DNA of 64,000 nt from positions 682,001 to 746,000 of the forward strand of contig NC_010525.1 of assembly GCF_000019805.1 (NCBI RefSeq), given 5' to 3'. Below the pieces are notes generated by a model, which worked only from the letters and a program-made list of their open reading frames with translations, made no database searches and was not told the origin of the DNA. Origin of the DNA: Pyrobaculum neutrophilum V24Sta (GTDB taxonomy: Archaea > Thermoproteota > Thermoprotei > Thermoproteales > Thermoproteaceae). A program made the translations under genes and the position numbers. Numbering within the stretch: position 1 is the first letter of the stretch; each line of letters begins with the position of its first letter. Shown here in pieces: positions 36,585 through 43,547 of the stretch.

Positions 36585-36604
36585 CGCAACGTTGAATATT
36601 TAAG
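36585..36604 (+). promoter_or_regulatory. CAACGTT-TATA element, copy 1
   Basis: CGCAACGTTGAATATTTAAG precedes ATG 36625 with the TATA centre 25 bases upstream. The CGCAACGTT part is repeated ahead of two more genes of this locus at the same distance from the TATA box, so it is a candidate operator or extended BRE. Confidence 0.6.
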
Positions 36605-36624
36605 CTCTGGCGTGTGTGGCGCTT

Positions 36625-37203
36625 ATGGTGAGGAGGAGGAACTATAGGCCTCTGGCGGCGGTTGCGGTGTTGGCTGTGGCTGCGCTTGTGGCTGCCACTG
36701 TTACGTTTACCAACGTCACCTACTGGCTTATCAACGCCACTAAGCCGCCTGCCATGAAGTACCCCGGCGCGGACACCGCCGTGGCCGGCGGCCAGTACGT
36801 CAAAGTCAGCTACTACTACGACAGCCAACGCGGCGTAAACATCACGAGGATCTCCATCATAGGCTTCACAGGAGACCCCACCAACTACACCTCCGTCGTG
36901 AAGGTGTGCAACTACTACGGCACCACCCCCATAACAGCCTATCTGGTGTGGGTAGGCCAGGTGGGCACCACCGGCTATGAGGGGTACATAAAGGCCTTCC
37001 TAGTCAAAGGCCCAGACGGCAAAGGCGTAGGCTTCGTAGGCACAACCACATACACCCAGGCAGGCCCCTACACCATCAACCCAGGCGCCTGCATCGACAT
37101 AGGAGCCTACGTCGCAATAGACCCAGCAATACCCCTAAGCCTAGCCAACGGCCAGACAATACTCGGCACATACCAAGTAAACATACAAATGAGCCCACAG
37201 TAA
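36625..37203 (+). CDS. exported pilin-like surface subunit 1
   Basis: A 192-residue secreted or membrane-anchored protein. A basic start (MVRRRNYRP) and one hydrophobic helix (LAAVAVLAVAALVAATVTF) form a signal sequence; then comes FTNVTYWLINATKPP and an all-beta, Thr/Tyr/Gly-rich domain with N-glycosylation sequons. Two cysteines, in KVCNYYG and PGACIDIG, are placed as in the next gene and in 43002-43547, suggesting a disulfide. The end is TYQVNIQMSPQ. The layout fits TasA/camelysin-like fibre subunits such as the bundling pilin of Pyrobaculum, a match from memory of the fold and not from alignment. Start ATG 36625 is chosen over GTG 36616 by promoter spacing. Confidence 0.75.
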   Translation: MVRRRNYRPLAAVAVLAVAALVAATVTFTNVTYWLINATKPPAMKYPGADTAVAGGQYVKVSYYYDSQRGVNITRISIIGFTGDPTNYTSVVKVCNYYGTTPITAYLVWVGQVGTTGYEGYIKAFLVKGPDGKGVGFVGTTTYTQAGPYTINPGACIDIGAYVAIDPAIPLSLANGQTILGTYQVNIQMSPQ

Positions 37204-37333
37204 ACCCCCCTTTTCCCCAACCGCTCACTCCAAATCCCCCCTTTTCTCCCGTCTCAAGCCTTTTTCTGCTGTCATATTGAATCGAATTGGGTGTCGGGGT
37301 TGGAGGGCGTTGCAGGAGGCGGGTTTTGTATGT

Positions 37334-37353
37334 CGCAACGTTAAATATAAATG
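37334..37353 (+). promoter_or_regulatory. CAACGTT-TATA element, copy 2
   Basis: CGCAACGTTAAATATAAATG lies with its TATA centre about 27 bases before ATG 37374. It matches copy 1 over CGCAACGTT and copy 3 over CAACGTTAAATATAAAT, far more than TATA boxes elsewhere in the window share. Confidence 0.6.
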
Positions 37354-37373
37354 CAGTAGAGTTTTTGGGGGTC

Positions 37374-37946
37374 ATGAGTAGCGGGAGAAGGCTGGTGGTG
37401 TTGGCTGTGTTGTTGGGCGCAGCGGCGCTGTTTGCTACAGTGTCTATTCTGAACGTTACATATTGGTATGTAAACACCACGGCGCCTCCGGTTATTAAGT
37501 ACGTGGGCAACGACACCTATGTGATGAACGGCACCTTTGTAAAGGCCAACTGGTACTACGACCCGAACACCGGCCTCAACATCACTAGGGTGTACGTCAC
37601 GGGCGTGCCTGGCGACATTGTAAATATCACAAACGCGTTGAGGGTGTGCAACAGGTACAACGTGCCTGTGAAGATCAGGTTAGCCAGCGTCTCTATGTTG
37701 CAGGACTACTACCCCAACAACGTCTACATTAGGTACATGGCCGTTAAGTTAGTCAGCCCCACCAACTCCACCGACAACCAGGCGGTGATTGTGAACGAAG
37801 CCGTTGTCGACCCCTCGACGGGCTATGTAACTCTGCAGCCAGGCCAGTGCGCCATCTTAGGCGTTGACCTCACCATCGACGCCAACGCTCCATACTACCA
37901 GACCCTCGCCGCCTACCAGATAAACATCGAGAAGGTGCCCCAGTGA
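37374..37946 (+). CDS. exported pilin-like surface subunit 2
   Basis: A 190-residue paralogue of the preceding protein. Signal helix LVVLAVLLGAAALFATVS is followed by ILNVTYWYVNTTAPP, which aligns with FTNVTYWLINATKPP of subunit 1. Conserved positions continue through YYD...G.NITR, VCNRYN and PGQCAILG (the cysteine pair) to the end AAYQINIEKVPQ, against GTYQVNIQMSPQ. By eye close to 40% of positions agree. It is acidic/Asn-rich with several sequons, so probably glycosylated outside the cell. Two such subunits suggest a major and a minor component or alternative fibres. It has its own CAACGTT promoter and overlaps the next gene by four bases. Confidence 0.75.
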   Translation: MSSGRRLVVLAVLLGAAALFATVSILNVTYWYVNTTAPPVIKYVGNDTYVMNGTFVKANWYYDPNTGLNITRVYVTGVPGDIVNITNALRVCNRYNVPVKIRLASVSMLQDYYPNNVYIRYMAVKLVSPTNSTDNQAVIVNEAVVDPSTGYVTLQPGQCAILGVDLTIDANAPYYQTLAAYQINIEKVPQ

Positions 37947-39184
37947 TGAGCCGCGAGGCGGCGGCTAGAACACTCCTCTTTTTCCTCCCCACGCTCGTCT
38001 TCATAATCGCCTTGACGGCCCCCGGGGGCGACTACGCCTTTAGGACGGGCCCCCTGGGGGAGGTCCAGCCGGGCTCCCTCCCCTACTATGTTGCAGTGGA
38101 GAACAAGACCCTGTATCTATACAGCTCCCCCTACGCGCCGTGGCTCTACCCCGGCGCTCTGGAGCTCAAGCTCTTCTACCCGACTAAGGTGGCGGTGTTT
38201 TCCACGTGCGGCGCTGTGGCCGCTGGGGAGCTGGGCGGGCAGCCCGGCGCCTACCCAGTAGACGTGGCTGTGCCCCCGGCGTTTCAGGGGGACTGCTGGG
38301 TCAACTTCACACACCCCTCCGGATGGCGTCAGGCGGTGCTCCTCCGGGTTAGGCTGGTGGACTGGTATCCCGGGGCCTCCGAGAGGGCCGTGGTGGAGCT
38401 AAACGGCTCCGGCTGGCAGTTTCTGCAGGTGGGGCAGGACGGTATGTTGTACATATGGGAGAGGCCGGTGGTTAGGCTGCCGGTGGCCGGCTGCGTCTCT
38501 GTGTACAACAGGTCGGTGCTCCTCACGGAGATCCTCCGCTATGTGGAGGCGGCGCCTAACGTTGTCCCGCCGGTCTACGTACCGTCTGAGGCCGGGGCCG
38601 CTAGATACGGCGCGTTTATACACCTTGAGGGGCCGGCGAAGCTCTACATATACGGCGCCCCCTGCCTCAGCCACAAGCCCTTAAACGCGACGCCGCCGCC
38701 TCCCCTGCGCGGGCGGCTGGGGGTCGTGCTCCCAACGCCGACGGGCCCGGTCTTCGACCAAGCGGAGGTTAACAACACGGCGGTTTTCAAGACGGGGCTT
38801 AGGGTTGTGAACTACAGCGTGGCGCCCGCCAGGGTGTACAAGCTCTACCTCTATACATACAGCACGCCGGTGGGCATGTGGGGCGCCGTGTTGAGGTACA
38901 ACTTCGCCCTAACCGCATACCTCACCACCGAGATCTCCCTACTCTGGCCAGAGGGGGCGCGGTCTGTGGAGAAGAGGGGCGACGTCTGGGCGATACACAC
39001 AGGCGGCGCGACCTACTGGGTCTACAGCAGAGCGCCGCCTCGCACAATCTGCGAGCCGCCCTGCGGAGTGCCGGCTGGCTGGGCGGACCCCATCTACGTC
39101 GTGGTGGATCCCACAGGCCGCTGGGGCGGCTGGCCAAGCGTTTTGTCGGTCAAGAGGGAGGTTCTGCAGCCGTGGAGACCGTAA
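37943..39184 (+). CDS. large exported protein of the surface locus
   Basis: A 413-residue protein of unknown family with an N-terminal signal/anchor (LLFFLPTLVFIIALTAPGG) and an extracellular, beta-rich body containing many Tyr, Pro and Val, six or so sequons, and several cysteines. I see no C-terminal membrane helix, so it is either secreted or held by the N-terminal helix. The final third contains two cysteines in a row of close spacing (TICEPPCGVP). It is translationally coupled to subunit 2 (ATGA overlap). It may be an assembly, cap or anchoring protein of the fibre; this is inference from context only. Confidence 0.7.
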   Translation: MMSREAAARTLLFFLPTLVFIIALTAPGGDYAFRTGPLGEVQPGSLPYYVAVENKTLYLYSSPYAPWLYPGALELKLFYPTKVAVFSTCGAVAAGELGGQPGAYPVDVAVPPAFQGDCWVNFTHPSGWRQAVLLRVRLVDWYPGASERAVVELNGSGWQFLQVGQDGMLYIWERPVVRLPVAGCVSVYNRSVLLTEILRYVEAAPNVVPPVYVPSEAGAARYGAFIHLEGPAKLYIYGAPCLSHKPLNATPPPPLRGRLGVVLPTPTGPVFDQAEVNNTAVFKTGLRVVNYSVAPARVYKLYLYTYSTPVGMWGAVLRYNFALTAYLTTEISLLWPEGARSVEKRGDVWAIHTGGATYWVYSRAPPRTICEPPCGVPAGWADPIYVVVDPTGRWGGWPSVLSVKREVLQPWRP

Positions 39185-39213
39185 AACATTTTTGGGGGGA
39201 CCCCCGCAGACCT

Positions 39214-39615
39214 ATGAATTGGGTTGCCCTCCTCGTCGGCGTGGCGGCCGGCATGGCCGTGGCCTTCGGCAGGGTATACGCCGAGAGGGCGGTGGCTAGG
39301 CACTTCGGCCTGGTGCCTCAGTTGCTTTTCAAACATAGAGACGTGCTTGTGCCCTTCTTGGTGTTGGCCACCGCCGCCAACATATACGCCGTGTGGATCA
39401 CCGTGGCGTACGGCGGTATCTCCGCCTGGAGGCTCTCGGCCCTCGTCGGCATGGGGCTTCTAGTCGCGGCGCAGATGATGCAGCTCCACATTGCTCTACG
39501 CCCCAGTAGGCATGACCTGCAGCTGGCGTTGCTGTCGTGTGCGCCGTATGTATACCTCTTCGCACTTTATATAGCAGCCCTGGCCACGGGGAGGTACAGC
39601 CTCTGGCTGTTTTAG
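39214..39615 (+). CDS. polytopic membrane protein of the surface locus
   Basis: A 133-residue protein with about four hydrophobic helices (VALLVGVAAGMAVAF, VLVPFLVLATAANIYAVWI, LVGMGLLVAAQMMQ, LLSCAPYVYLFALYIAAL). No family recognised and no obvious catalytic Ser/Lys pair of a signal peptidase. ATG 39214 lies 29 bases after the preceding stop; the next gene starts one base after its TAG, so it belongs to the same unit. A platform or anchoring role is a guess. Confidence 0.65.
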   Translation: MNWVALLVGVAAGMAVAFGRVYAERAVARHFGLVPQLLFKHRDVLVPFLVLATAANIYAVWITVAYGGISAWRLSALVGMGLLVAAQMMQLHIALRPSRHDLQLALLSCAPYVYLFALYIAALATGRYSLWLF

Positions 39616-39616
39616 C

Positions 39617-39979
39617 ATGAACTTCGCAGAGACGATGCTGATCTCGGCGGCGGGGGGCGCCATAGCGGCGCTGGCCCCCCTGGTGTACATCATGTACTAC
39701 GGCAGGCCCACCACCTTCACCGTGTGGACCGGCGCCGTCGTGTCCTTCATAGGCGGCTTCATCTTCACGCTCCTCGCCGCCCAGTGGCCCCTCTTCTACG
39801 CCAGATTTACATACCTACTAGCCCTCGCCCTCCTCCTCACCTCCATAGCCTACACCTACTGGGGGATGTACAGGAGGAGGTGGTTCGCGTACCTCTTCGC
39901 CGCGGCGGCGTGGATATACATAATACTGCTGGCGCTGGTGGCTAAGGCCCTCGGCCTAGGCGACCCCTTCATCGCCTAA
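39617..39979 (+). CDS. small four-helix membrane protein of the surface locus
   Basis: A 120-residue membrane protein with about four helices (MLISAAGGAIAALAPLVYI, VVSFIGGFIFTLLAAQ, YLLALALLLTSIAYTY, YLFAAAAWIYIILLALVAKAL) separated by short polar loops such as GMYRRRW. Function unknown. It follows the previous membrane gene by one base. The promoter of the regulator gene begins at its stop codon. Confidence 0.65.
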   Translation: MNFAETMLISAAGGAIAALAPLVYIMYYGRPTTFTVWTGAVVSFIGGFIFTLLAAQWPLFYARFTYLLALALLLTSIAYTYWGMYRRRWFAYLFAAAAWIYIILLALVAKALGLGDPFIA

Positions 39980-39998
39980 CAACGTTAAATATAAATTG
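39980..39998 (+). promoter_or_regulatory. CAACGTT-TATA element, copy 3
   Basis: CAACGTTAAATATAAATTG directly follows the stop of the membrane gene and precedes the regulator gene at 40011, with the TATA centre about 23 bases before GTG 40011. It is identical over 17 bases to copy 2 (37336-37352). Confidence 0.6.
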
Positions 39999-40010
39999 TG
40001 GGACGGTACG

Positions 40011-40682
40011 GTGGATGTGAACATCACAGTGTTCCTCGTCCTTGCGCCGCTCGCCGCCTGGATGTACCCAGTGTACGTGCCGCCTAACTCCACCGCCTAT
40101 ATACACGCGGATCTGCCCCCAGCGCTCTGCAACGTGACCGGCACACTCCAGATAGACAAGCCCACGACTGTGGCCTGCGTAAACACGGCGCTACAGCCGG
40201 CCCCCCTCAGGGGGAGCCTCTCCGTCGAGTACCCCACACCGCCGCCGCAGCCTCCGCCCCCAGCGCCCGAGGCGCCTATAGTGGCCGTAGCCGCCGGGGC
40301 CGCGGCGGCCGCCGGATTAAGCCACCTGGCGAGCAACAGGAGGGAGTTGCTGGCCGCCCCCGTGGTGGCCATAGCCGCGAGGGTGAAGAGGGCCGTCGCG
40401 GAGGACCCGGCGCGGAGGGAGATACTAAACGTCGTGGAGAAGATGGGCGCCGCCACCCTCTCCCAGATAGCAAAGGCCACGGGAAGGGGCTGGGGGGCTG
40501 TGCAGTGGCACCTCTACGTCCTCGAGCGGGAGGGGAGGGTTAGGTCTGTGAGGATCGGGCCCTTCACCTACTACTACGTCAACCCGAGAGCCGCCGCGGA
40601 GGTCATCCTATCCTCGGTCGACCCGGAGACCCTCTCGCCCGAGGATAGAGAAAAGCTTGATCTAATGGCCTCCTCGCTATGA
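40011..40682 (+). CDS. membrane-anchored winged-helix regulator with an external domain
   Basis: A 223-residue protein with an outside-in layout: an N-terminal hydrophobic segment (ITVFLVLAPLAAWMYP), an external region of about 60 residues with sequons and two cysteines, a proline linker (PTPPPQPPPPAPEAP), a membrane helix (IVAVAAGAAAAAGL), and a cytoplasmic winged helix. The last has REILNVVEKMGAATLSQIAK, recognition region GWGAVQWHLYVLEREG and wing VRSVRIGPFTYYYVN. It closely resembles the soluble regulator at 7767-8162. It could sense the fibre or surface state and control the CAACGTT promoters, one of which is its own. GTG 40011 is chosen by TATA spacing; the next gene overlaps by four bases. 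Confidence 0.8.
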   Translation: MDVNITVFLVLAPLAAWMYPVYVPPNSTAYIHADLPPALCNVTGTLQIDKPTTVACVNTALQPAPLRGSLSVEYPTPPPQPPPPAPEAPIVAVAAGAAAAAGLSHLASNRRELLAAPVVAIAARVKRAVAEDPARREILNVVEKMGAATLSQIAKATGRGWGAVQWHLYVLEREGRVRSVRIGPFTYYYVNPRAAAEVILSSVDPETLSPEDREKLDLMASSL

Positions 40683-43000
40683 GGTATGCCGCCCTCCTGG
40701 CTCTGCTGGGCGCCTTGGCGGCTTTGGCAGTCCTCTCCTTTTTAAACGTGGTGCAGACCGCCGTAAACGCCTCTCTTGCACCGGTCGCCAAGGGGCTAAA
40801 CGGCTCGGTCTACCCCCTGGCGAAGGCTTGGTACAGCTACGCCGGCTTCTACAACGTGACGTACTACTACATGAGGTTTGTCCCTGGGTGGCCCGAGCTG
40901 TACACCGTAGGCCTATTCGCGCCGAGGCAGACCGGCTGGCAGAGCTGGCTGGAGGCCGTGGGGAGGTCGGGCACTGGGCAGTACGCCATAGCCCTAGGCG
41001 GCCAGGTGCAGATAACCCAGAGCCAGAACTCGGGCCCCCCCGTGGCCATAAGCCAAAACACGCCTCTCCAGTGGCAGACCCTCGCCACCCAGCGCTACTC
41101 GGTCCTAGCCCGCGCCTGGTTCAGACAAGGGGGAATAACCGCCGTCCAGCTGGTCAACTTCACAGCAGAGCCGATGTCTAAGCTCTACAGCCAGACCTTC
41201 TCATGCGGCACTACGACGTATGTGGAGCAGTTTAACTACTGTACAACGCAGACCTTCTCCTACAGCGACAGCTTCAGCTACACGACCCTGCCCCCCTACA
41301 TCACCAAATACCTAAACTACGACCCCACAACCGTCACGGTACCTCCCGTCTCAATAGACACGACAAACAGCCCCACAACCCCCCCAAGCCTCAAGACGCA
41401 GGTGGACGCAAAACGGACTGGCGCGGGTGTAGTAGCCGCTGTGTACAACACGGCGGCGAGGTGGGGCTTGATACAGTCCTACGGCACCACAGTCGCCGTA
41501 AGCCTAAGGTACCAGAGGGATACCGTAGTCGCAACTGATACACAAAATAACGTTGCATACATATCTATAGCGGTGGATAGAGACGGCGATGGGAGACCAG
41601 ATGTGGAGCTTATATACTACTACTACGATATAGCCGTCAGATATTCTGGTGCAATCTATTCGGTGTTTGTAAACCCGGGGGCCTACCTCGCCAGTGTGTC
41701 GTCTACCGGCGGTTTAACATATGCGGCTGGCGTGTCGAATGGCACTACTTACTACTTCTACCGCGTGGGCTCCATGTCGTCTGGCCAAACCTACAGATTT
41801 AGTAGAACGCTGGCTGTCAGCGGCTACATAGTGGCCGTAGCCTTCGTCGTAGTTGACGCCGCTTACTACGCCGATGGCTCCCCCGCCGGCGATTTCTGGG
41901 TGTGGTGGGACGACTTTGGGATAAGCGGGACGGGGACTGTCTGTAGCCTGCCGGGCAACGTCGCCGTGTACACCAGAGGCTACAACTACACCCAGGTGTA
42001 TATAGCCCCCGGCGTGGGGAACCCAGCGCCTTCTCTAGTTACTGAGGTGGACGCCTACGGCGCCTCCGGCAACCCCCAGACGGATTGGGGAGCCGCCATC
42101 GCGGTCTACAGGCTGGCTCAGCCCGTCCCAGCCCTCGGCACCTCAGTCTCCGTCTGGGGGCTCTACCAGAAGGATGCCAACGACCTCTCTAACAACGTGG
42201 CGTATGTCTCCATCGGCGTCGACGCCAACGGAGATGGCCAGGTGGATAAGGAATACATCCTCTACAGAAGCGACACGGGAGGAGGCCCCGGCGCCATAGT
42301 GTCGGCCTTCTTCAAAGACGCAAGTGGAAACCCAGTCTACGTATGTACAGTAGACACCACCGGCGCCTGCGCCACCACAGACCCCCGTTTCGTCGTCGTA
42401 AACCTCGGCGCTATGACAAGCGGCAACAGCTACACCTGGAGCTACACCCTAAACGACCAAGGCGCGGTGGTGGCCATAGCCCTAGCCGTCACAGACGGCA
42501 GCTACTACGGCGAAGGATACAGCGGCGACGTCTGGGTGTACTGGGATAACCTGCAGCTTCAATACAGCGCGTGTCCTCTCCCCGCCGGCTGGAGCGTCTC
42601 GGGCGCCTACGCCTGGCAGTCGTATAGCTACCTCCTGGCCTCTGGGAGCGTTGCTGTATACATGGGGCTCGTCGCCGGTGGGCTTACCTACGTGTCTAAC
42701 TTCACGGGGGTTGGGGCCTACGCGGTTTTTGACTCCTCTCTCACGCCGATTTTCGGCGTCTCCATAAGCGGTAGTAGCTTCTCAGCCCTCTGCGGCTCCT
42801 CTGCCGTCTCGCTCGGCTCTCTGCCGTCGGCTGCGTGGGTCGAGCTTAGGCCTCTCTCGGGGCTAGGCGACATAATCGTGAGAGACCAGTACGGAAACAT
42901 CCTAGCTAGATACGGTTGCCCCTACACCGCGGCGCCGCAGTACATAGGGTACAAAACCACAAACACCCTCAAAATATACAACATAACAGCGCTGGGCTAA
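40679..43000 (+). CDS. 773-residue repeat-containing surface protein
   Basis: Probably an adhesin, tip or scaffold protein of the fibre. The signal helix (ALLALLGALAALAVLSF) is followed by LNVVQTAVNASLAP, which mirrors the FxNVTYWxxNATxPP start of the two small subunits. The body contains two long repeats of about 200 residues, each with N-NVAYISIAVDRDGDG or NNVAYVSIGVDANGDG and ending WVWWDDFGI or WVYWDNLQL. The Asp-rich loops DRDGDGRPD and DANGDGQVD look like calcium-binding sites. A third C-terminal segment lacks the loop. Between about 41500 and 41900 the DNA is visibly richer in A/T than the rest of the gene. Start ATG 40679 overlaps the regulator by four bases. Confidence 0.82.
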   Translation: MRYAALLALLGALAALAVLSFLNVVQTAVNASLAPVAKGLNGSVYPLAKAWYSYAGFYNVTYYYMRFVPGWPELYTVGLFAPRQTGWQSWLEAVGRSGTGQYAIALGGQVQITQSQNSGPPVAISQNTPLQWQTLATQRYSVLARAWFRQGGITAVQLVNFTAEPMSKLYSQTFSCGTTTYVEQFNYCTTQTFSYSDSFSYTTLPPYITKYLNYDPTTVTVPPVSIDTTNSPTTPPSLKTQVDAKRTGAGVVAAVYNTAARWGLIQSYGTTVAVSLRYQRDTVVATDTQNNVAYISIAVDRDGDGRPDVELIYYYYDIAVRYSGAIYSVFVNPGAYLASVSSTGGLTYAAGVSNGTTYYFYRVGSMSSGQTYRFSRTLAVSGYIVAVAFVVVDAAYYADGSPAGDFWVWWDDFGISGTGTVCSLPGNVAVYTRGYNYTQVYIAPGVGNPAPSLVTEVDAYGASGNPQTDWGAAIAVYRLAQPVPALGTSVSVWGLYQKDANDLSNNVAYVSIGVDANGDGQVDKEYILYRSDTGGGPGAIVSAFFKDASGNPVYVCTVDTTGACATTDPRFVVVNLGAMTSGNSYTWSYTLNDQGAVVAIALAVTDGSYYGEGYSGDVWVYWDNLQLQYSACPLPAGWSVSGAYAWQSYSYLLASGSVAVYMGLVAGGLTYVSNFTGVGAYAVFDSSLTPIFGVSISGSSFSALCGSSAVSLGSLPSAAWVELRPLSGLGDIIVRDQYGNILARYGCPYTAAPQYIGYKTTNTLKIYNITALG

Positions 43001-43001
43001 C

Positions 43002-43547
43002 ATGGGAGCAGAAAAGACGCCGCAGGTCCAGGAGATGAGGCAACAAGCCGAGGAGGTCGAGGAGAGGAGGCGGGGCGCCGTGTTGATCATACTAGGCCTG
43101 GCGGCCCTCCTGGGGGCCTTCTGGGGCGGCCTGACGTTTCTGCCCGCCGCGGCGGGTGGGGGCGCGGGCGTCGGCGGCGTTGGGCCCGAGGCTGTGGGGG
43201 TGGGCAACGTGGTGTTGGTTGGGTTCAACGGGACTCAGAGGTTTGTGCTTTGGGCTCCTCCTGGGTCCGTGGTGGTTTGGGATGTGGCTTTCTGCAACGT
43301 GGCAGATGGCGACGTGGTGGCCTCTGTGAAGCTTGTCGATCTGCCTCGGGAGTTTAGGCGTTTTAGGTTCTATGTGAACGGGAGTTGGTTTGGGTGGGAT
43401 GGGGTTAATATGACTGGGTGGAGCGGCGTCTTCCGCCGGGGCTTGTGTCTGCCGGGGAGGCTGGAGGTTCTGGTGGATGGCCGGGCGGCGCCCGGCGGGG
43501 TTTACGCGGCTAGGGCTCAAGTCGAGGCGAGGCCGCTAGGCGACTAG
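43002..43547 (+). CDS. membrane-anchored pilin-like protein 3
   Basis: A 181-residue protein with a 25-residue charged cytoplasmic N-terminus (QEMRQQAEEVEERRRG, helical), one membrane helix (AVLIILGLAALLGAFWGGLTF), a Gly-rich linker, and an external beta-rich domain. The external part contains DVAFCNVADGDVVASVKLVDLP and RRGLCLPGRLEV, so its two cysteines fall in the same places as KVCNYYG/PGACIDIG of subunit 1. It is therefore a diverged member of the same family, but permanently anchored: a possible base or anchor subunit. Its 3' end overlaps the convergent aroD gene by 12 bases. Starts one base after the 773-residue gene. Confidence 0.72.
   Translation: MGAEKTPQVQEMRQQAEEVEERRRGAVLIILGLAALLGAFWGGLTFLPAAAGGGAGVGGVGPEAVGVGNVVLVGFNGTQRFVLWAPPGSVVVWDVAFCNVADGDVVASVKLVDLPREFRRFRFYVNGSWFGWDGVNMTGWSGVFRRGLCLPGRLEVLVDGRAAPGGVYAARAQVEARPLGD

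Follow-up and report, generated by a model that had tools for sequence, protein, structure and literature searches.

How does an archaeon begin, end, anchor and switch a bundling pilus? The question is raised by a run of eight consecutive plus-strand genes (g1 to g8 in order; 36625-43547) in a stretch of Pyrobaculum neutrophilum V24Sta DNA. This stretch, the window, is 64,000 nucleotides long and covers 682001-746000 of a single-contig genome of 1,769,823 bp. The archaeal bundling pilus of Pyrobaculum calidifontis, with its subunit AbpA (PDB 7UEG), was reportedly described by Wang et al. in PNAS in 2022 (doi 10.1073/pnas.2207037119), and both pilin and pilus are already known. The pilus is known from the filament of that one organism, and there is little open information on its start, end, anchoring or switching. 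We find that the P. neutrophilum locus probably builds an AbpA/TasA-like archaeal bundling pilus and controls its own output. It supplies candidates for an end subunit and adhesin (g7), a membrane anchor (g8) and a regulator (g6), together with a promoter box that predicts a complete, very small regulon (Table 1).

By sequence, g1 and g2 are clearly homologues of P. calidifontis AbpA. Over its whole length g1 matches 7UEG with an E value of 3e-61 (phmmer), g2 matches at 7.5e-29, and an AbpA profile reaches 1e-86. The PDB search found no archaeal bundling pilin other than 7UEG. The first-pass annotation had proposed TasA-like bundling pili from remembered architecture, and alignment now supports this. 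The two proteins, here AbpA1 and AbpA2, share 37% identity (E 4e-29). A donor segment follows the signal helix, with N30, Y33, W34, P41 and K45 conserved in the AbpA alignment. Going by the homology to 7UEG, the signal helix would be removed, after which the N-terminal segment (FTNVTYWxxNATxPPxxK) would enter the sheet of the next subunit. Strand insertion of this kind would yield a stable fibre that bundles cells.

One difference from P. calidifontis is the number of pilin genes. That species has one abpA at its locus, whereas P. neutrophilum has two paralogues, each with its own promoter, and carries away from the locus a third abpA gene that is nearly identical to abpA1. Phylogenetically, the AbpA2 proteins group in one clade (support 100/100), separate from the remaining AbpA proteins. 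AbpA2 is about 87% identical to its orthologue in a related genome (G029) and AbpA1 58% (tblastn). Such slow change would be consistent with AbpA2 being a conserved minor subunit and AbpA1 a major one that evolves fast. The extra abpA1 copy (G000:C1:1471921-1472496, minus strand; L053:9919-10497) encodes a protein 99% identical, and the similarity at about 95% covers some 700 bp, promoter box included. A C14 run follows this copy, and C6 stands at the same point of the window copy. Another genome (G036) carries an additional diverged AbpA (L046:5145-5717) some kilobases from its own abp locus. Distant proteins of about 130-250 aa with an AbpA-like body and no donor segment occur outside abp loci in a sister family and in Thermoproteus (L027, L030, L058 and others). 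Vulcanisaeta-type matches of about 300 aa were rejected as chance, since they fall in other genes or frames; real but remote homologues do occur there, with lengths of about 130-148 aa.

Is this locus the counterpart of the one behind the known pilus? The species names given to relatives (P. islandicum for G030, for example) are provisional, as is the label Thermofilaceae for what the data show as another family of the class. In G028, which we take to be P. calidifontis, the order is abpA-g3-g4-g5-g6-g7-g8, matching the window. Given this shared order, the window locus is orthologous to the one underlying the known pilus. The gene set is kept in 13 of 19 Thermoproteaceae genomes. Each gene is conserved across species, so the eight open reading frames (ORFs) are not chance, and the description of eight same-strand genes encoding mostly exported or membrane proteins is borne out. 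Since g1 and g2 match 7UEG and relatives keep the neighbourhood, the locus has neither folds unrelated to fibre subunits nor an arrangement peculiar to one genome. In P. islandicum, between the same flanking genes, abpA1 stops after about 65 recognisable residues, g2 to g7 are gone and g8 is frameshifted. The remnants of this decayed locus (L051:9453-11524) surround AAA/KaiC-like ATPase ORFs, which are interrupted at a C16 run.

The core of the locus (regulator, AbpA, g3 and g7) is also found in Thermofilaceae. There the AbpA profile finds pilins in about seven genomes (E 1e-31 to 1e-39), and AbpA matches at these loci reach 1e-41. A regulator with a membrane helix and a winged helix-turn-helix (HTH) lies near these pilins (E 2e-11 to 1e-21), the similarity extending beyond the HTH. 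At the place of g3 stands a 460-480-aa protein that hhalign aligns to g3 (probability 92, E 6.5e-7; controls at most 1.4%). The g7 homologue (450-720 aa) matches over its full length in four genomes (up to 1e-173) and by the N terminus alone in two; the counterpart in G074 keeps the AbpA-type N terminus only. A near-Pyrobaculum g7 and g8 on a 3.5-kb contig of a genome from another family (L204, G265:C141) probably reflects assembly contamination and was set aside.

The large subunit g7 is the candidate for the fibre end. An AbpA-type signal and donor segment (residues ~1-40) is followed by a conserved body (41-176), two lectin-like repeats (~236-425 and 450-632; 38% identical, E 4e-29) and a conserved C-terminal domain (633-773). 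When AbpA and g7 profiles are compared by hhalign, the N-terminal part alone aligns (probability 97.5, E 5e-12), confirming the earlier remark that the start of the 773-residue protein resembles those of the pilins. The resemblance can be seen directly when the P. aerophilum g7 FSFFNVTYWRVNATLPPVMK is set against AbpA FTNVTYWLINATKPPAMK. Across the 19 genomes, a profile of the donor segment matched the AbpA genes, one g7 per locus, a truncated gene (G000:1050756) and nothing else. The truncated gene (G000:C1:1050750-1050923; L054:9218-9502) starts with a donor segment of AbpA type (VSFTNVAVFSVNASLPPGMKYAGAD), lacks a pilin body and is followed by an unrelated gene. A profile of the AbpA body alone finds no significant g7 (best E 8.6). 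Because the same N-terminal segment sits on a different body, g7 should be able to donate a strand and probably not to accept one.

This arrangement recalls TapA of Bacillus, which has only its N terminus in common with TasA, donates that segment and cannot accept a strand (PMC10151520). TapA therefore stands at the beginning of the filament only (PMC10151520). The analogy suggests that g7 is a TapA-like end subunit. Like TapA on a TasA fibre, it would occupy one fibre end, with its two repeats exposed as an adhesin. In an AlphaFold2 (AF2) model of g7 (mean predicted local distance difference test, pLDDT, 79.6; predicted template-modelling score, pTM, 0.49), residues 19-40 are of low confidence and lie outside every sheet. 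Foldseek matches the model best to a pair of CBM22 carbohydrate-binding domains in tandem (E 2.5e-6); because the global template-modelling (TM) score is poor, this serves only as a pointer to the fold class. On this model the repeats would be carbohydrate-binding-like and displayed as an adhesin. They are the parts that vary most between species (33% and 42%, with 62% and 57% for the flanking parts), and T. tenax g7 lacks the second repeat.

The shared segment is short and contains the signal helix, and the body of g7 is unlike AbpA in the body-only search. These features could be attributed to a separate surface adhesin that has only its signal-peptide or export region in common with AbpA. 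We consider this unlikely, though it retains some weight. The similarity does not stop at the likely cleavage point but continues into NxTYW..NATLPPVxK, where it coincides with the AbpA donor region, and these are among the best conserved positions. In addition, g7 is co-located and co-conserved with AbpA in two families.

How might the locus control its own output? A sequence with the consensus CAACGTT[GA]AATAT[TA][TA]A precedes g1, g2 and g6. The exact 15-mer AACGTTNAATATWWA occurs four times in the 1.77-Mb genome, before abpA1, abpA2, g6 and the second abpA1 copy. Allowing up to two mismatches, the window holds four matches where 0.02 are expected. Among the 19 family genomes, all 17 occurrences of the exact form AACGTTRAATATWWA stand before abpA or g6, and the reversed control gives 0. 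In 28 of 30 promoters, 35-38 bp separate the box from the start codon. With this spacing the box takes the position of the B recognition element (BRE) and TATA element, and the genes are probably leaderless. When a matrix trained on Pyrobaculum was applied to three held-out Thermoproteus loci, an abpA or g6 promoter ranked first in each. Common descent of the promoters does not account for the shared box, because g6 is no duplicate of abpA. In Thermofilaceae the box is different (GAACTAANANRWWTATAAR; GAACTAA..TATAA) and is again common to abpA and regulator promoters, with 6/6 exact matches in nine genomes. Two extensions failed. A wider regulon was rejected when up to two mismatches gave 32 matches genome-wide against 23 in the reversed control. 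A relaxed Thermoproteus pattern YWACGYWAARTATWTA proved less specific, with matches in G040, which is without the locus, and stray ones in G041 and G042.

The regulator g6 had been described as a membrane-spanning winged-helix protein, and the winged helix is upheld by HTH matches in Pfam and NCBIfam. Inspection of the alignment suggests an N-terminal hydrophobic segment, a short external domain with two invariant cysteines, a proline-rich linker, a membrane helix and a cytoplasmic winged helix. Its most likely start, GTG 40017, is the one that agrees with the starts of orthologues and with the distance to the promoter. At least 12 of 13 g6 members match an HTH family in Pfam (HTH_20 at 2.2e-10 in one relative). 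The window g6 itself falls just under the Pfam cut-off and matches NCBIfam HTH_metalloreg at 5.3e-7, under the family cut-off. The simplest reading of these sequences is that g6 recognises the box and that regulator and box diverged together across two families. The external domain would sense something outside, possibly the state of pilus subunits, and the winged helix would act on AACGTT at the BRE position beside the TATA box of abpA1, abpA2 and g6. Acting on pilin promoters and on its own, g6 would close a self-contained feedback circuit. The earlier idea that the locus has its own regulator holds: g6 is a real, conserved gene and shares with the pilin genes a promoter box that occurs almost only at this locus.

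The position of the box could also be read differently. At almost every gene it stands 35-38 bp ahead of the start and coincides exactly with the BRE/TATA site, to which transcription factor B (TFB) binds. It could therefore be a dedicated core-promoter element, a special BRE for an alternative TFB, in which case g6 would have another target. This is rather unlikely. A basal factor would serve many genes, whereas the box is exclusive to the locus and its duplicate. Its sequence also differs in Thermofilaceae at abpA and regulator alike, as expected for co-evolution of regulator and operator.

Membrane-bound one-component HTH regulators with dedicated boxes at a surface-filament promoter are known from Sulfolobus, where they are called ArnR and ArnR1 (PMC6396743). 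The predicted action of g6 is alike in being that of a membrane-anchored HTH regulator with dedicated boxes at such a promoter. The architecture differs. ArnR has an N-terminal HTH, two C-terminal helices and boxes upstream of the BRE, whereas in g6 the HTH is C-terminal and the external domain contains cysteines, and the box stands in the BRE position.

The last gene, g8 (181 aa), has a long charged N-tail of cytoplasmic type, then one membrane helix and a beta-sandwich. The first-pass annotation counted it as the third of three related short subunits. This stands for g1 and g2; as an equal third, g8 was rejected. BLAST gives no match to g1 or g2, the donor profile gives none either, and the donor segment is also missing in the alignment. 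hhalign gives a weak match to AbpA (probability 76), and in the alignment the invariant residues G, CN, C and D of g8 fall in line with AbpA. When a hidden Markov model (HMM) of the AbpA body was run over 2877 ORFs, the six ranks below the clear AbpA homologues were all g8 orthologues, none individually significant (E 0.15-2.5). By sequence, g8 is at most a remote relative of AbpA. A protein in G036 (L047:13073-13606), encoded separately and some kilobases from the abp locus of that genome, combines a g8-like N-tail and helix with an AbpA body (30% identity; HMM 4e-23), which supports the existence of anchored AbpA relatives without a donor. From its layout, g8 may be the membrane anchor of the fibre. 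It would take the last free donor strand and fix the base in the membrane.

Separate promoters for AbpA1 and AbpA2, and species that carry AbpA1 or AbpA2 alone, could instead mean that genes 1, 2 and 8 are three alternative pilins for separate fibres between which the cell switches. We regard this as quite improbable. With no donor segment, and a helix behind a long charged N-tail, g8 would be unable to polymerise by the AbpA mechanism.

Taken together, the parts could form a self-contained circuit. A donor-only, lectin-like tip (g7) would cap a shaft of donor-and-acceptor AbpA, in Pyrobaculum held by an acceptor-only anchor (g8). The g6 receptor would read pilus or substrate and switch a locus-exclusive box, receptor and box having diverged together in two families. 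This full version is tentative and on the whole somewhat unlikely, compared with the probable pilus locus that controls its own output.

Several points weigh against the pilus locus and its proposed parts. For the confident g8 model (pLDDT >90 for most of residues 70-180), Foldseek returned generic beta-sandwiches only, with TM <0.35 to the query. The relation of g8 to AbpA is weak by the body-HMM values given above, and Thermoproteus loci are without g8, which therefore is no universal anchor. Both the anchor role of g8 and the end position of g7 are read from which parts are present or missing. The G033 locus is without g4 and g5, and these are therefore not strictly needed, if that metagenome-assembled genome (MAG) is right. 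Binding of the box by g6 is deduced from co-occurrence only. The relaxed Thermoproteus form of the box has stray matches. As the Thermofilaceae loci themselves served to build the pattern for that family, independent evidence comes only from the scarcity of this pattern elsewhere. The reading of AbpA1, AbpA2 and g3 comes from their sequences.

The beta-rich exported proteins with many NxT/S sequons (read from translations) might instead indicate an S-layer or glycoprotein locus. This is very improbable given direct homology to a solved pilin and the same locus in P. calidifontis, where the pilus has been seen.

Other filament systems help to place a bundling pilus locus of this kind. Among the eight proteins, Pfam gives no match to a type IV pilus assembly ATPase, platform protein or prepilin peptidase, and none to chaperone-usher genes. 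The TasA-TapA-SipW fibre of Bacillus subtilis is alike in pairing a donor-strand subunit with a partner that shares only the donor N terminus (TapA there, g7 here). It differs in several respects. No SipW-type signal peptidase was matched among the eight proteins (Pfam, NCBIfam), camelysin (peptidase M73) has no Pfam match in these or in 16 AbpA members, and the regulator lies inside the locus. In addition, g7 is about three times larger than TapA and carries the lectin-like repeats. The thread filament of Sulfolobus acidocaldarius is built from Saci_0406, with Saci_0405 proposed as a distinct cap (PMC9715654). It too is a donor-strand archaeal filament with a distinct cap subunit proposed, with a different gene set and no Saci_0406 match in PDB searches with AbpA proteins.

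A donor-tagged large subunit, a donor-less anchor and a receptor with its own box were not found in the open literature searched, the original 2022 AbpA paper being outside its scope. The circuit and end subunits appear undescribed, though part may stand in that paper. If true, the bacterial TasA-TapA plan has been reached with a different end protein, and Pyrobaculum and Thermofilum offer a natural regulator-operator pair for the study of co-evolution.

The layout of the locus agrees with more than one transcript start. The three boxes indicate at least three promoters and not a single operon. Four-base overlaps, said earlier to be several, were overstated: the only clear one is between g6 and g7 (40679-40682). 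With the conserved ATG at 37946 as the g3 start, g2 and g3 share a single base; the remaining intergenic gaps are 1-170 bases, and g8 shares 12 bases with its convergent neighbour. Both flanking genes, as read from the ORFs, are on the minus strand: a prephenate-dehydrogenase-like gene on one side and a dehydroquinate-dehydratase/chorismate-mutase-like gene on the other.

Table 1. Genes and promoter boxes of the P. neutrophilum locus, in window coordinates.
Feature	Description	Position	Strand	Evidence
Box 1	CAACGTTGAATATTTA; AACGTT fused to TATA element, 37 bp before abpA1 start	36587..36602	+	exact motif, spacing
g1 (abpA1)	AbpA-family pilin, signal helix and N-terminal donor segment, 192 aa	36625..37203	+	7UEG phmmer, alignment, donor profile
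Box 2	CAACGTTAAATATAAA; 37 bp before abpA2 start	37336..37351	+	exact motif, spacing
g2 (abpA2)	second AbpA paralogue, 190 aa	37374..37946	+	7UEG match, tree, tblastn identities
g3	exported/anchored protein, no known family, 412 aa	37946..39184	+	conservation, hhalign
g4	small polytopic membrane protein, 133 aa	39214..39615	+	conservation, alignment
g5	small polytopic membrane protein, 120 aa	39617..39979	+	alignment
Box 3	CAACGTTAAATATAAA; 36 bp before regulator start	39980..39995	+	exact motif, spacing
g6	probable membrane-spanning regulator, ~221 aa	40017..40682	+	alignment, HTH matches
g7	large subunit, 773 aa	40679..43000	+	hhalign, internal repeat, AF2 model, Foldseek, region conservation
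g8	charged N-tail, one helix, beta-sandwich, 181 aa	43002..43547	+	AF2 model, hhalign, body-only HMM, bridging protein

The remaining genes, g3, g4 and g5, would form a membrane-proximal assembly or export set. In relatives g3 always directly follows abpA. Of the 81 genomes examined in the class, 13 carry it, each as a single gene and each belonging to Thermoproteaceae; in WP30 and P. oguniense it is split into two frames. No known fold was found for g3, with no Pfam match for ten members, no PDB match and no AbpA match by profile. Both frameshifts coincide exactly with simple repeats, where WP30 (L055:11303-12534) has a 2-base TA insertion and P. oguniense (L049:10594-11822) a G9 run. Slippage that switches the gene on and off could account for them, as could sequencing error. 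The two small polytopic membrane proteins named by the first-pass annotation are g4 and g5, with about four helices each by inspection. They are not related to each other (hhalign probability 0.8 only). One g4 per genome occurs in 12 of the 19 family genomes, and divergent g5 homologues adjoin three Thermofilaceae loci (E 1e-7 to 1e-9). In some relatives, nucleotidyltransferase/HepT-like toxin-antitoxin genes are inserted between g5 (or g3) and g6 (L052, L044, L045 and L057). In the last of these, from G033, they occupy the place of g4 and g5 (L057:2121-3052).

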